NCBI GenBank assembly: GCA_016872555.1
Contig: VGZO01000042.1
Span: forward strand, 1 to 38,106
Origin: Planctomycetota bacterium
GTDB taxonomy: Bacteria > Planctomycetota > Planctomycetia > Pirellulales > UBA1268
Length of the DNA stretch: 38,106 nt
Direction of reading: 5' to 3'
The notes beneath the pieces are model-generated. The model saw only the letters and a program-made list of their open reading frames with translations, was not told where the DNA came from and searched no databases. The position numbers and the translations under genes were made by a program. Of this stretch, positions 6,193 through 37,668 are shown one piece after another (within the stretch, counting starts at the first letter, position 1; each line of letters opens with the position of its first letter).

Positions 6193-7200
6193 TCAGCCGT
6201 CGCGGCCCACGATCCGCCGCGCCAGTGCTTTCACCGACAGCGGCGCCGAGCCCTCGGCTTTGTTGTTGACCGTGATCAGCACCTCGGCGCCGCGGGCGGC
6301 GCGGGCCGCTGCCAGGTCGGCGAGCGCCGCCCGCGACTCCCGATCCTCGTCGACCAACCGGTCGAACGGGAAGTAGTGCTGCTTCGCCTCGTCGTAGGCC
6401 ATCCCGGCGTGGAGGTTCCAGCGGACCACCAGCGCCCCGGAGGACAACCCGCCGAGGCGCTCGACCTGCTCGGCGACCGGCGGCATCCGCGCGTGGACCG
6501 CGAGGCAGGGCACGGCACCGGCGTCGGCGAGGATCCGCACGCCGCCGGGGAGCAGGCACTGCGGGTCGCGGAACTCGATCGCGTAGCGGGGGCCGCGCGG
6601 CAGCACGGCGACGAAGGCGGCGATCCGCGCGGCGAGGCGCTCGGGATCGCGGGCCACACGCCCCAGCGGCGGGAACTGGAACACCAGCGCCCCCACCTTC
6701 CCCGCCAGCCCCTCGACCGCCGGCCGGACGAACGCCGCGGCGGCGGCGGCGCCGTCGAGGAACGAGGGATTGTCCCCCGCCGCCCCGCCGCGGAGCACCG
6801 GGTCGGTGAACGCCGCCGGCGCCTTGACGACGAACCGGAAGTCGTCGGGCACCTGCGCGGCGTAGCCGGCGAAGGCGTCGGCCGACAGCGGCGCGTAGAA
6901 CGTGCGGTCGAGGCTCACGGTGCGGAACAGCGGACAGGCGGCGTAGGCCGCCAGCCCCGCGCGCGCGAGGCGCTGCTCGCTCTCGGGCCGGCCCTCCCGG
7001 GGCGCGTAGACCAGCCCCGTCCAGCCGGGGAACGACCAGCTCGACGTGCCGAGCCGGATCGCCGCCGGCAGCGCCCGGGCCAGGGCAACGGCCTCCGCGT
7101 CGGCCGCCGCCGGCAGCACGGGCGCGGCGGAGGGGCGCGCACGGCTCCCGGCCGGGGCGGGATCGTCGTCGTCGAAGAAGGAGAGTTGGCGGGCGGGCAT
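6193..7200 (-). CDS. DUF72 family protein (YecE-like)
   Basis: A 335-residue member of the DUF72 family, a TIM-barrel family of unknown biochemical function. Signatures are IRLGTSSWSFPGWTGLVY (about 48-65), the RTFYAPLSADAF segment, FRFVVKAPAAFTDP, VGALVFQFPPL, YAIEFRDPQC, LVVRWNLHAG and VLITVNNKAEGSAP near the C-terminus. It has a low-complexity acidic/proline leader of about 45 residues (SFFDDDDPAPAG) also seen in other DUF72 proteins. The start lies inside the left arm of a 9-bp inverted repeat, and the gene is divergent from a D-lactate dehydrogenase-type gene 87 bases away. No function is assigned. Confidence 0.85.
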   Translation of the reverse strand: MPARQLSFFDDDDPAPAGSRARPSAAPVLPAAADAEAVALARALPAAIRLGTSSWSFPGWTGLVYAPREGRPESEQRLARAGLAAYAACPLFRTVSLDRTFYAPLSADAFAGYAAQVPDDFRFVVKAPAAFTDPVLRGGAAGDNPSFLDGAAAAAAFVRPAVEGLAGKVGALVFQFPPLGRVARDPERLAARIAAFVAVLPRGPRYAIEFRDPQCLLPGGVRILADAGAVPCLAVHARMPPVAEQVERLGGLSSGALVVRWNLHAGMAYDEAKQHYFPFDRLVDEDRESRAALADLAAARAARGAEVLITVNNKAEGSAPLSVKALARRIVGRDG

Positions 7201-7233
7201 CGCGCGACCCCGGGGACGGTCGCGATCATGCTA
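7199..7233. promoter_or_regulatory. Inverted repeat plus ATGCTAGC motif in a divergent promoter region
   Basis: ATCGCGACC (7199-7207) and GGTCGCGAT (7216-7224) form a perfect 9-bp inverted repeat with an 8-base centre. It overlaps the DUF72 start codon and is followed at 7226-7233 by ATGCTAGC, which reads GCTAGCAT toward DUF72 and contains the -10-like TAGCAT. A similar arrangement occurs at 37009-37037. It could be an operator or a 5-prime hairpin; this is inference. Confidence 0.35.
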
Positions 7234-7287
7234 GCTTTCCGCCGACGAAGCCCGCTGCCTCACCCGGCAGCGCGGCATACTGATGGC

Positions 7288-10284
7288 ATGGCCGTCACCG
7301 CGCCCCATCCGTCGGACATCGCCGCGCGCCTCGCCCGCCTCGCCGACAGCCTCGACGGCGAGTTGCTCGTCGACGAGTCGTGGCGTGCGATCTACGCCAC
7401 CGATGCATCGGAATACCAGGAGCGACCGCTGGCCGTCGCCCTGCCGAAGTCGGACGCCGACGTGCAGCGGCTCGTGCGCTTCGCCGCCGCCGAGCGGATC
7501 GGGTTCATCCCGCGTGGCGCCGGCACGTCGCTGGCGGGGCAGGTCGTCGGCGGCGGGATCGTCGTCGACCTCGGCCGCCACATGAACCGGATCGTCGCCC
7601 TCGACACGGCCGGGCGGCGCGTGCGCGTCCAGCCCGGCGTGGTCCGCAACGACCTCAACCGGTTCCTCGCGCCGCACGGGCTGTTCTTCGGCCCGGAGAC
7701 CTCGACCGCGTCGTGGGCCACGATCGGCGGGATGGTGGGCAACAACTCCTGCGGGAGCAACTCGATCGCCTACGGCGCGACGCGCGACCACTTGGTGAGC
7801 GCCCGCGGCTACCTGGCCGACGGTTCCGAGGCCCGCTTCGGGCCGCTGTCGGCGGCCGAGCTCGGGGCCGCGTGCACGGCCGGCGGAGCGCCCGAAGCCC
7901 GGATCCTCGCCGGCCTCCGCGACCTGCTCGCCGATCCGGCGGCGCGCGAGCTGGTGCGGCGGTCGTTTCCCAAGCCGGAGGTGACGCGGCGCAACACCGG
8001 CTACGCGCTCGACGCCCTCATGGACGCGGCGGTCTTCGATCCGGCGGGCGACCGGCCGTTCAACGTCTGCCGGCTGCTGGCCGGGTCAGAGGGGACGCTG
8101 TTCGTCGGTGTCGAGTTCGAGCTCGGCCTGATCCCGCTGCCGCCGCCGGGGGCGCTGCTGGTCGCCCACTGCCGCGCCGTCGACGAGGCGCTCCGCGGCG
8201 CGGTGGTCGTGATGCACGCCGGGCGGAGCGCGGCGGCGGCCGCCGGCGGCGCGCTGACCGGCTGCGAGCTGATCGACGACAAGATCCTCGCCTGCACCAA
8301 AGACAATCCCGAGCAGGCGCGCAACCGCAGCTTCGTCGTCGGCGATCCCGGCGCCGTCCTCGTCGTCGAGGTCCGCCACGCCGACGCCGGGGGGCGCGGC
8401 GCGATCCTCGACCGGATCGAGGCGGCGTTTGCCGCCGCCGGCATCGGCTACGCCTTCCCCCGGCTCCACGGCCGCGACGCCGAAAAGGTGTGGGAGCTGC
8501 GCCGCGCCGGGCAGGGGCTGGTGCAGAACATCCCCGGCGACGCGAAGCCGCGCGAGATCATCGAGGACACCGCCGTCGCCATCGACGACCTCCCCGCCTA
8601 CATCGCCGACATCGACCGTCTCCTCGGCGGCACGCACGGCCTCGACTGCATCCACTACGCCCACGCCGGCGCCGGCGAGCTCCACCTCCGCCCGCTGTTC
8701 GACCTCCGCACCGCGGAGGGCCTGCGGCTGTTCCGGGCGGTGGCGACCGACGTCGCGGCGCTGGTGAAGCGCTACCGCGGCAGCCTCTCGGGCGAGCATG
8801 GCGACGGCCGGCTGCGCGGCGAGTTCGTCCGCACGATGGTCGGCGACGAGTGCTACCGCCTGCTCGAGCGGGTGAAGCGGCTGTTCGACCCCGACGGGAT
8901 CCTCAATCCGGGGAAGATCATCGACACGCCGCCGATGGACACGGCGTTGCGGATCCTCACCGGCGCCGCCGAGCCCCGTCACGAGACGGTGTTCCGCTTC
9001 GGCGACACCGGGGGGATGCTCCGCGCCGCCGAGAAGTGCTCCGGGGTCGGGATGTGCCGCAAGCCGGCCGCCGCCGGGGGCACGATGTGCCCCAGCTACA
9101 TGGCGACGCGCTCCGAGCACGACACGACCCGGGCCCGTGCCAACCTCCTCCGCCAGGCGCTTGCCGATCCCTCCCGGGCCGACCCCTGGAGTTCGCCGGG
9201 GCTCGGGGAGGTGATGGACCTCTGCCTGTCGTGCAAGGCCTGCAAGAGCGAGTGCCCGTCGAACGTCGACATGGCGCGCCTCAAGGCGGAGTGGGAGCAG
9301 CACGTCCACGACGCCCGCGGCGTGCCGTGGCGGACGCGCCTCGTCGCGGCGACGGCGCCGCTGCTGCGCTGGGCCAGCGTCGCCCCGTGGGCCTACAACC
9401 TCGCCGTCGGCACGCCGGGGACGTCGTGGCTCGTCAAGCGGATCCTCGGGTTCGCGCCGCGCCGGTCGCTCCCCGCGCTCTCCCCGCAGCGGCTGTCGGG
9501 CTGGTTCTCGCGGCGCCGGCCGCGCTGGACGGCCGCCACGGCGCCGCGCGGGGCCGTGCACCTGTTGTGCGACGAGTTCACCGACACGCTCGACGCCGGC
9601 GTCGGGATCGCCGCGGTCGAGCTGCTCGAGGCGCTCGGCTACGCCGTCGTGATCCCGAAGCATGCCGACAGCGGCCGGGCGCAGCTCTCCAAGGGGCTCG
9701 TCCGCGCGGCGCGCGAGCTGGCGGTGAGGAACGTCACGGCGCTGGAGGGGGTGGTCAGCGACGGCATGCCGCTGGTCGGCCTCGAGCCGTCGGCGCTGTT
9801 GAGTTTCCGCGACGAATACCCCGACCTCGTCCCGGCCGGTCTCGCGGAGCCGGCGCGCCGGCTGGCGGGGCGGGCGCTGCTGCTGGAGGAGTTCCTCGCC
9901 CGCGAGGCGGCCGCCGGCCGGATCGGTCCCGGCGACTTCGACGACGCTCCCCGCGCGATCGCGCTGCATGGCCACTGCCACCAGAAGGCGCTGTCGAGCA
10001 TGGAGCCGGCGGTGGCGGCGCTGGCGCTGCCGGTGGGGCATGCGCTGAGCGTGATCCCGTCGGGGTGCTGCGGGATGGCGGGGAGCTTCGGCTACGACCG
10101 CGGCCACTTCGCCGTCTCGATGGCGATCGGCGAACTGGTCCTGCTGCCGGCGGTCCGTGCCCTGCCGCCCGGCACGCTCGTGGCCGCCGCGGGCACCAGC
10201 TGCCGCCACCAGATCGCCGACGGCACCGGCCGCCGAGCGCTACACCCGGCCGAGATCCTCCGCGCCGCCGTCCGCGTTGGTTGA
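7288..10284 (+). CDS. FAD-binding and Fe-S oxidoreductase, D-lactate dehydrogenase type
   Basis: A 998-residue fusion of an FAD-linked oxidase (GlcD/Dld type) with a GlpC-like Fe-S subunit; such proteins oxidise D-lactate, glycolate or other 2-hydroxy acids and pass electrons to the respiratory chain. The PCMH FAD domain has IPRGAGTSLAGQVVGGGI (about 73-90) and SWATIGGMVGNNSCGSNS. The C-terminal cap contains HYAHAGAGELHLRP and SGEHGDGRLRGEF with catalytic His residues. Two 4Fe-4S sites follow: CSGVGMCRK with TMCPSY, near 583, and CLSCKACKSECPSNVD, near 645. The end has cysteine-rich CCG-type motifs (HGHCHQKAL and SGCCGMAGSFGY). I use the ATG at 7288, although the frame is open far upstream; a CATACT 6 bases ahead could be a -10 box of a nearly leaderless transcript. 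The substrate is uncertain. Confidence 0.9.
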   Translation: MAVTAPHPSDIAARLARLADSLDGELLVDESWRAIYATDASEYQERPLAVALPKSDADVQRLVRFAAAERIGFIPRGAGTSLAGQVVGGGIVVDLGRHMNRIVALDTAGRRVRVQPGVVRNDLNRFLAPHGLFFGPETSTASWATIGGMVGNNSCGSNSIAYGATRDHLVSARGYLADGSEARFGPLSAAELGAACTAGGAPEARILAGLRDLLADPAARELVRRSFPKPEVTRRNTGYALDALMDAAVFDPAGDRPFNVCRLLAGSEGTLFVGVEFELGLIPLPPPGALLVAHCRAVDEALRGAVVVMHAGRSAAAAAGGALTGCELIDDKILACTKDNPEQARNRSFVVGDPGAVLVVEVRHADAGGRGAILDRIEAAFAAAGIGYAFPRLHGRDAEKVWELRRAGQGLVQNIPGDAKPREIIEDTAVAIDDLPAYIADIDRLLGGTHGLDCIHYAHAGAGELHLRPLFDLRTAEGLRLFRAVATDVAALVKRYRGSLSGEHGDGRLRGEFVRTMVGDECYRLLERVKRLFDPDGILNPGKIIDTPPMDTALRILTGAAEPRHETVFRFGDTGGMLRAAEKCSGVGMCRKPAAAGGTMCPSYMATRSEHDTTRARANLLRQALADPSRADPWSSPGLGEVMDLCLSCKACKSECPSNVDMARLKAEWEQHVHDARGVPWRTRLVAATAPLLRWASVAPWAYNLAVGTPGTSWLVKRILGFAPRRSLPALSPQRLSGWFSRRRPRWTAATAPRGAVHLLCDEFTDTLDAGVGIAAVELLEALGYAVVIPKHADSGRAQLSKGLVRAARELAVRNVTALEGVVSDGMPLVGLEPSALLSFRDEYPDLVPAGLAEPARRLAGRALLLEEFLAREAAAGRIGPGDFDDAPRAIALHGHCHQKALSSMEPAVAALALPVGHALSVIPSGCCGMAGSFGYDRGHFAVSMAIGELVLLPAVRALPPGTLVAAAGTSCRHQIADGTGRRALHPAEILRAAVRVG

Positions 10285-36036: not shown

Positions 36037-36864
36037 TCACGGCACGGTCGGTGCCGGAGCCGTGGCCGGCTCGGCGACCAAAACAGGTCTGTCGTCGCGC
36101 CCCGCGGCCCACCGGGTGCCGCGGCGGATCACCGCCTCGAGCCCGGATGTCTTTTCCGGGTGGGGGCTGAAGCAGATCACCCGCCCCTGACCGAATGAGC
36201 CGGCCGCGATCGCCGTGGTGCCGACCATCACGCCGCTCGGAGCGCCGTTCTTGGCGATCTCGGTGCCGTACGTCGCCAGCCCCTCGTAGTCGGGCAGGTC
36301 GTCGCGGTTTCCAGGGGCGAGGAGCGGGCCCTGGCCGTAGTAGCAGTCGACTTCGTCTCCGTCGATGCCGAGGAGCCGTCGTCCCGCCGGGGAGACCTCG
36401 AGAACGACCGACCCGGTGCCACGGGCCCAGTGGCGCGTGTCGAGCACGTGGGCATCGAGAATTGCCAGCGACCAGGGGTAGTGGGACGTCGCCAGATAGG
36501 CTCCGGCACAGATGCCGACATAACCGCCGCCGCGGCGCACGAACTCCTGGATCGCCGCGCGTCCCTCGGCTTCGAGGAGCTTGCTCTGCCCCGACCCGCT
36601 CCCGCCGGGGCAGACGACGACGTCGCACGCCTCGAGGGCCGTGCCGCGAAACTCCGCCGGCGCCGCCGTGCGGAACGCGAATTCGTCCCGGTCGCCGAGG
36701 CAGCGGAGGAGATTCGTCGGGGCGACCCCGGCCGTGCCGGTGCCATGCACGTCGAGGCAGACGACGCGGATCGGCCGCGGCGGCGGTTCATCGGCGCCGA
36801 CCGGGGCGCTGGCGAGGCCGGCGCACACCGCGCCGCAGGCGAGCCACAGGCTGAGTCGTGTCAA
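36037..36864 (-). CDS. BPL_N-type glutamine-amidotransferase-like exported protein
   Basis: A 275-residue protein with a class I glutamine amidotransferase-like fold, of the kind known as BPL_N (biotin-protein-ligase N-terminal). DVVVCPGGSGSGQSKLLEAE and FVRRGGGYVGICAGAYLATS hold the nucleophile elbow G-I-C-A-G with the probable Cys. The start is uncertain: no ATG is suitable, and I use the TTG at 36864, which gives a signal peptide (LSLWLACGAVCAGLASAPVG) after GGAG 12 bases upstream. The frame is open to 37050. It is followed by the Tat-exported Gfo/Idh/MocA gene. Later motifs are GDEVDCYYGQGPLL and ICFSPHPEKTSG, where the His may complete the catalytic dyad/triad. The role is unknown. Confidence 0.7.
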   Translation of the reverse strand: MTRLSLWLACGAVCAGLASAPVGADEPPPRPIRVVCLDVHGTGTAGVAPTNLLRCLGDRDEFAFRTAAPAEFRGTALEACDVVVCPGGSGSGQSKLLEAEGRAAIQEFVRRGGGYVGICAGAYLATSHYPWSLAILDAHVLDTRHWARGTGSVVLEVSPAGRRLLGIDGDEVDCYYGQGPLLAPGNRDDLPDYEGLATYGTEIAKNGAPSGVMVGTTAIAAGSFGQGRVICFSPHPEKTSGLEAVIRRGTRWAAGRDDRPVLVAEPATAPAPTVP

Positions 36865-37008
36865 TTGTGTGAATCGCTCCGCGATAGTCGTGGCGAGGTG
36901 ACCACCCTGGCATATGTCGATCGGGGAAACCGTCGGCGTTTCCCGGGGCTGTCTGAGCGGGCTGAACGAGCCGGGCGGTCGCGCGGCCGGCCGGAGCACG
37001 GAGGCCTC

Positions 37009-37037
37009 GGTCCGCGGACCGCTAGCATACGGTCCGC
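37009..37037. promoter_or_regulatory. GGTCCGC palindrome array with GCTAGCAT between divergent genes
   Basis: GGTCCGCGGACC (37009-37020) is a perfect 12-base palindrome. It is followed by GCTAGCAT (37021-37028), which contains the -10-like TAGCAT, and by a third half-site GGTCCGC (37031-37037). It lies in the gap between the BPL_N-type gene (minus) and DUF1653 (plus). The layout suits an operator surrounding a -10 box. No -35 consensus is visible. Confidence 0.45.
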
Positions 37038-37069
37038 GACGCCACGCCACCGCCCCGGAGGCACTTCCC

Positions 37070-37297
37070 GTGACCGCGCTTCAGCCGGGCCGATACCGCC
37101 ATTACAAGGGGCGCGACTACGTCGTCATCGGCGTCGCCCGCCACAGCGAGTCGCTCGAGGAGGTGGTCGTCTACCGCCAGGAATATGGCGACCGCGGCCT
37201 GTGGGTCCGGCCGGCGGCGATGTTTGCCGAAACGGTGGTCGTCGATGGCCAACCGGTGCCGCGCTTCAGGCGGATCGACGACGGGGCGGAAGGATGA
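37070..37297 (+). CDS. DUF1653 family protein
   Basis: A 75-residue protein, nearly all of it the DUF1653 domain (PGRYRHYKGRDYVVIGVARH, then VVVYRQEYGDRGLWVRPAAM and FAETV). The family is a small beta-rich fold of unknown function found widely in bacteria. The GTG at 37070 has GGAGG eight bases upstream; the open frame reaches back to 36914 but the family length favours this start. The promoter region holds a GGTCCGC palindrome array. It is followed by a remnant IS3-type element after a short gap, so it is probably a single-gene unit. Function unknown. Confidence 0.85.
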   Translation: MTALQPGRYRHYKGRDYVVIGVARHSESLEEVVVYRQEYGDRGLWVRPAAMFAETVVVDGQPVPRFRRIDDGAEG

Positions 37298-37382: not shown

Positions 37383-37668
37383 ATGACGCCACGACGACGG
37401 AGACGGCATAGCCCGGAGCAGGTGGTCGCGAAGCTGCGAGATGCACTCGCGTCTCAACGCTGGGAAGGAACTGGCAGCGGTGCTGCAGGCCTTGGAGATC
37501 AGCGAGGCGACGCTGGCCCGCTGGCGGGCCCAGTACGGCGGGATGAAGTCCGAGGAGGCGAAGCGACTGAAGGCCCTCGAGGATGAGAACCGTCGGCTGA
37601 AGCAGCTTGTGGCCGACCAAGCCCTCGACATCCAGAGACCCGAGCATCTCTCGGAGGGAAACGGGTGA
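37383..37668 (+). pseudogene. IS3-family transposase orfA, frameshifted
   Basis: The first part (MTPRRRRRHSPEQVVAKLRD, from 37383) is the helix-turn-helix start of an IS3-type OrfA, in one frame. Past about 37450 the family sequence continues in another frame: LNAGKELAAVLQALEISEAT, then the leucine-zipper-like KRLKALEDENRRLKQLVADQ. Neither frame alone gives a full OrfA. Family members have a three-residue segment at the junction where this copy has about two residues plus one base, so a two-base deletion is the simplest reading. The usual programmed frameshift of IS3 elements is at the orfA/orfB junction, not here. The end (DIQRPEHLSEGNG) is also diverged. Confidence 0.8.

Follow-up and report, generated by a model that had tools for sequence, protein, structure and literature searches.

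The 8-base word GCTAGCAT, which is shared by two divergent gaps in the DNA studied here, is with a probability of about 0.8 a -10 box of the sigma-70 type, read as G-C-TAGCAT and belonging to a genome-wide family GnTAnnnT. On this reading, sequence alone would have sufficed to identify the -10 element used by an uncultured lineage of very GC-rich planctomycetes, and a striking shared 8-mer would be part of the core promoter and not the mark of a regulon. Overall, our analysis points to an ordinary core-promoter element, lying in what are probably two bidirectional promoters, with GC-rich neighbours that are incidental. The window, by which we mean the whole stretch of 38,106 nucleotides that was analysed, corresponds to contig C42 in a genome of 4.47 Mb. 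The features on which the argument turns are given below with their state in the closest congener, G027.

6193..7200, minus strand: DUF72 gene (PF01904), start codon 7198-7200.
7203..7209, plus strand: left arm, CGCGACC, of the inverted repeat GGTCGCG, considered incidental; altered in G027.
7218..7224, plus strand: right arm GGTCGCG of the DUF72 inverted repeat, judged incidental; altered in G027.
7228..7233, minus strand: putative -10 hexamer TAGCAT within GCTAGCAT for the DUF72 gene, predicted start ~7220-7221; unchanged in G027.
7232..7237, plus strand: putative -10-like TAGCTT towards the FAD-linked oxidase gene, overlapping the DUF72 -10 in AnnnTAnnnT geometry; unchanged in G027.
7288..10284, plus strand: divergent FAD-linked oxidase / 4Fe-4S gene (PF02913, PF01565).
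36037..36912, minus strand: divergent gene with a biotin-protein-ligase N-terminal-like (BPL_N-like) domain (PF09825), start 36912 by eye or 36828 by gene caller.
37009..37020, plus strand: palindrome GGTCCGCGGACC, sole copy in the genome; broken in G027.
37013..37038, no strand: perfect inverted repeat CGCGGACCG-CTAGCATA-CGGTCCGCG, dyad 37025.5, possible species-specific operator; right arm absent in G027.
37023..37028, plus strand: putative -10 hexamer TAGCAT for the DUF1653 gene, predicted start ~37035; TACCAT in G027.
37024..37029, minus strand: putative -10-like TATGCT towards the BPL_N-like gene, overlapping the DUF1653 -10 (TAGCATA is a TAnnnTA site); G027 keeps TACCATA.
37070..37297, plus strand: DUF1653 gene (PF07866).

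A preliminary description of the window had noted that two divergent promoters carry the same 8-base word and that in each the word points into a gene for a domain of unknown function, and both observations hold. GCTAGCAT lies at 7228-7235 on the minus strand and at 37021-37028 on the plus strand, and the genes that it faces encode DUF72 (PF01904, E 6.7e-36) and DUF1653 (PF07866, E 3.7e-29) proteins; judged by DUF72, the nearest named relative of the genome is a Planctomycetota MAG (97% identity). Two copies in 38 kb exceed chance, as dinucleotide shuffles contained a mean of 0.20 and reached two in 2 of 100 cases. Words of the form GGTC(C)GCG, also described near both copies, are indeed present: GGTCGCG at 7218-7224 (plus) and 7203-7209 (minus) in the DUF72 gap, and GGTCCGCGGACC at 37009-37020 and GGTCCGCG at 37031-37038 in the DUF1653 gap. 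The left arm at DUF72, however, had been misread. The letters at 7199 are ATCGCGCGACC, two bases longer than ATCGCGACC, so only the 7-base arms CGCGACC/GGTCGCG, separated by an 8-base loop, form an exact inverted repeat. The supposedly shared arrangement of word and half-sites did not survive either: in the DUF72 gap the whole inverted repeat falls downstream of the word and before the start codon, whereas at DUF1653 the repeat CGCGGACCG-CTAGCATA-CGGTCCGCG flanks the word on both sides.

The assignment of TAGCAT to a -10 family was made in a sample of 838 kb (40 stretches plus the window), in which a Viterbi caller called 619 genes and from which we took 434 upstream regions, each spanning a gap of 50 bases or more. 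TAnnnT occurred at 3.59 per kb on the same strand in these upstream regions, compared with 0.39 per kb sense and 0.27 per kb antisense in genes; where the upstream region was not divergent, its wrong strand had 0.95 per kb. The motif is thus concentrated before gene starts on the coding strand, as a -10 element should be. Its density peaked 30-60 bases before the start codon, and the spellings TATACT, TAGACT, TACACT and TATCCT were 26- to several-hundred-fold enriched over genes. Across 137 sites, G was the favoured base two positions before TA (60%), and T at -23 rose to 37%, forming a weak peak at -23/-24, where a -35 would lie. We saw no good -35 match by eye at either window site, where the -35 elements look weak; at the tRNA-Leu promoters, TTGCAC was noted by eye. 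TAGCAT itself was found three times upstream, never on the sense strand of a gene and twice antisense in the sample. This placement, together with the enrichment of TAnnnT, argues that TAGCAT is one of the forms that the housekeeping -10 box takes.

The resemblance to the sigma-70 (RpoD-type) -10 element (TATAAT, TAnnnT) covers the strong retention of the first T, the A and the last T, the upstream placement, the preferred G and the weak T peak at the expected -35 position. Here, in contrast, the interior is GC-rich (GC or CC), there is little -35 at the window sites, and the starts are predicted. RpoD-like sigma factors are present, although none passes the curated cut-off of 354 bits (best score 350.5), and we infer that an RpoD-type RNA polymerase uses these boxes and the predicted start sites. 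TAGCAT within GCTAGCAT would then drive the DUF72 gene at one site and the DUF1653 gene at the other. Judged by titles and the beginnings of abstracts, the literature that we found included no published planctomycete -10 motif.

Both sites lie in divergent gaps and each overlaps an opposite-strand TAnnnT hexamer, TAGCTT at DUF72 and TATGCT at DUF1653; for this reason each is probably a bidirectional promoter, with activity in both directions put at about even odds. Each -10 pair would thereby also serve the opposite gene, TAGCTT the FAD-linked oxidase gene and TATGCT the BPL_N-like gene. With starts placed seven bases after the last T of the hexamer, the predicted divergent starts are 23 bp apart at DUF72 and 18 bp apart at DUF1653, those for the opposite genes falling near 7244 (plus) and 37017 (minus); a bidirectional promoter would be expected to have starts on its two strands 7-25 bp apart. 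Bidirectional promoters with pseudo-symmetric -10 elements have been described by Warman, Grainger and colleagues (PMC12825309, PMC10268837), and one of these reports gives 18 bp as the most common spacing of divergent starts, 10 and 23 bp being common as well (PMC12825309). The window sites share with the published promoters the overlapping opposite hexamers and the spacings of 18 bp (DUF1653) and 23 bp (DUF72); the work in these two papers was done in E. coli and Salmonella. No title in the literature that we found dealt with bidirectional promoters in Planctomycetes.

The fixed overlapping geometry of opposite -10 elements is present in TAGCATA and in AAGCTAGCAT, and both symmetric patterns are kept in G027, the one as TACCATA, with an inner letter changed, and the other as AAGCTAGCAT. 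In the genome of the window, TAnnnTA accounted for 13 of 66 TAnnnT sites in divergent gaps versus 3 of 101-102 in co-directional gaps (p 0.0007, 0.0006), while AnnnTAnnnT, the DUF72 type, did not differ significantly (17 of 66 versus 16 of 101-102; p 0.16, 0.12). Two further genomes of the family had TAnnnTA at 18 of 98 divergent versus 12 of 136 co-directional sites (G003, p 0.046) and at 9 of 53 versus 4 of 62 (G021, p 0.09). Pooling of the three genomes gave 40 of 217 versus 19 of 300 for TAnnnTA (p 3e-5) and 54 of 217 versus 41 of 300 for AnnnTAnnnT (p 0.002), counts that we take as support and not as proof because the two offsets were picked after viewing the histogram of the window's own genome and because divergent gaps are richer in opposite-strand -10 boxes anyway, so that some overlap is expected. 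The symmetric -10 boxes in divergent gaps of the three genomes suggest that bidirectional promoters operate there too. In G011 and G020, which are more distant congeners, inspection by eye showed no overlapping opposite -10 at the DUF72 promoter. A -10-like CATACT lies at 7276-7281 (plus), ~12 bases upstream of the ATG that begins the FAD-linked oxidase gene; it could serve a leaderless transcript of that gene and is, for that gene, an alternative to transcription from the shared box.

At the DUF1653 gap, the 9-bp repeat at 37013-37038 might be a species-specific operator through which one repressor shuts both divergent directions, so that a symmetric operator would sit on a symmetric promoter. 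The arms are perfect and centred on the -10 (dyad 37025.5, versus 37026 for the two-way -10 pair), the strand folds far better than shuffles (z -4.95), and G027 retains the left arm CGCGGACCG. The right arm, however, is gone from G027, which has GGTACCATA where this genome has GCTAGCATA in an alignment that is gappy (103 of 276 columns identical). Moreover, 9-bp inverted repeats are not rare, with 322 matches in 838 kb (overlapping ones counted singly) and occurrence in 1.2% of random upstream windows, and no repressor gene was identified. We consider an operator at this gap unlikely.

The reading of GCTAGCAT as a -10 box draws further on where the exact word occurs. It looks special because CTAG is strongly avoided, by about sevenfold (77 seen versus 547 expected in the 838-kb sample), and 49 of these 77 lie outside called genes. 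CTAG words of Salmonella, as described in PMC5337935, are likewise rare and largely intergenic; the present ones are from a different phylum, and many of them may be explicable by the -10 box. Only six copies of GCTAGCAT exist in 4.47 Mb, and five are promoter-placed on the same strand as the downstream gene, although upstream sequence makes up 3.2% of position-strand pairs. Four lie 27-41 bases before infA (L006; protein MAEKEQALEVEGVV, named by eye), tRNA-Leu (L002), DUF72 and DUF1653, and the fifth (L003) stands ~100 bases before the conservative start call of a lipoprotein-like gene, whose start is uncertain. The sixth (L001, 1501-1508; G000:C12:2647-2654) is a clear non-promoter use of the word: in GCTAGCATG, a TAG stop is followed by the ATG of the next ORF, which is prenyltransferase-like (named by eye), and the ortholog L192 uses GCTAGCATG at the same stop/start junction.

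In the genus, covered by four genomes, the word has 23 copies, of which 20 stand in promoter position, a count that sets aside L001, L192 and an in-gene copy (L198, antisense inside an open frame with coding-like scores) and that includes L194, where the contig ends before a gene is callable and the sequence matches L193. Conservation of the -10 box at orthologous promoters extends to infA in four of four genomes, tRNA-Leu in three and DUF72 in the closest congener. By eye, the DUF72 promoter of G011 has GGTAGCAT before the gene, and no GCTAGCAT-type word was seen at that of G020. That the word is a chance occurrence with no promoter function could be argued from its mere six copies, one of them a stop/start junction, but the upstream placement of the other five and the retention of the infA copy across four genomes make this very improbable. 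Two other arrangements were noted at congeneric copies. In two congeners (L193 and L194, near 1501), GCTAGCAT, a few bases and GCTAGCA stand in near-tandem before one conserved gene, and at L190 two DnaA-box-like words (TTATCCAC, by eye) lie ~20 bases before 1501, immediately upstream of a conserved gene's -10.

The preliminary description had gone on to suggest a common regulator site over a -10 box. Placement and membership in the TAnnnT family support the -10 box; the common regulator found no support in the distribution of half-sites. A transcription factor bound to GGTC(C)GCG half-sites over both promoters, co-regulating DUF72 and DUF1653, would fit the inverted pair that both sites have no more than 30 bases from the -10, and also the genome-unique GGTCCGCGGACC, yet a sequence with a single genomic copy cannot be the mark of a regulon in this genome. 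The two sites also differ in sequence (GGTCGCG versus GGTCCGCG), spacing and position. Around the 192 TAnnnT sites of the 838-kb sample, half-sites showed no enrichment: they lay within 30-base flanks of 19 sites (9.9%), compared with 9.4% for random upstream and 10.2% for random genic controls, and within 21-base flanks of 13 (6.8%, controls 6.5% and 7.3%). Within the window, both GGTCGCG (30 seen versus 39.1 expected from shuffles) and GGTCCGCG (9 versus 12.1) are slightly under-represented. Inverted pairs occurred at five TAnnnT sites in four genes, but four of the five come from the two gaps of the window, which were scored on both strands or twice, and with the window left out the frequency (1 of 180 sites, 0.56%) equals that of the control. 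Among the 23 genus copies of GCTAGCAT, the inverted pair accompanies only the two in the window, and L196 has a single half-site.

Comparison with G027, in which the divergent gene order is the same at both loci, tells equally against a shared site. The 93 bases of the DUF72 gap contain 12 differences, none of them in the 13 bases of the -10 block; the arms are changed at 4 of 14 bases versus 8 of 79 elsewhere, and the comparison of the arms with the remainder of the gap (p 0.08) makes it certain that they are no better preserved. As the repeat at DUF1653 is broken as well, through the loss of one of its two arms, the pair of half-sites is intact at neither orthologous promoter in G027, an outcome of the kind that the preliminary description had itself named as a refutation. 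On the half-site controls at both flank sizes and this congener comparison, we rejected the shared regulator, which we now regard as highly improbable. The GGTC(C)GCG words are common GC-rich words that happen to lie near the two -10 boxes, and we judge their presence there incidental.

Hardly credible, and likewise rejected, is an RNA leader hairpin formed by the GGTCGCG repeat after the DUF72 box and controlling translation: a 6-bp stem does form, ending 3 bases before the ATG, but its energy is no better than that of shuffles (z 0.29) and the best fold of the same stretch falls from -14.8 kcal/mol here to -5.7 kcal/mol in G027. Compared with Rfam at gathering scores, the window showed no known RNA family. 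Near the contig end, at 37441-37668 on the plus strand, a short ORF resembles, by eye, the first ORF of an IS3-type transposase.
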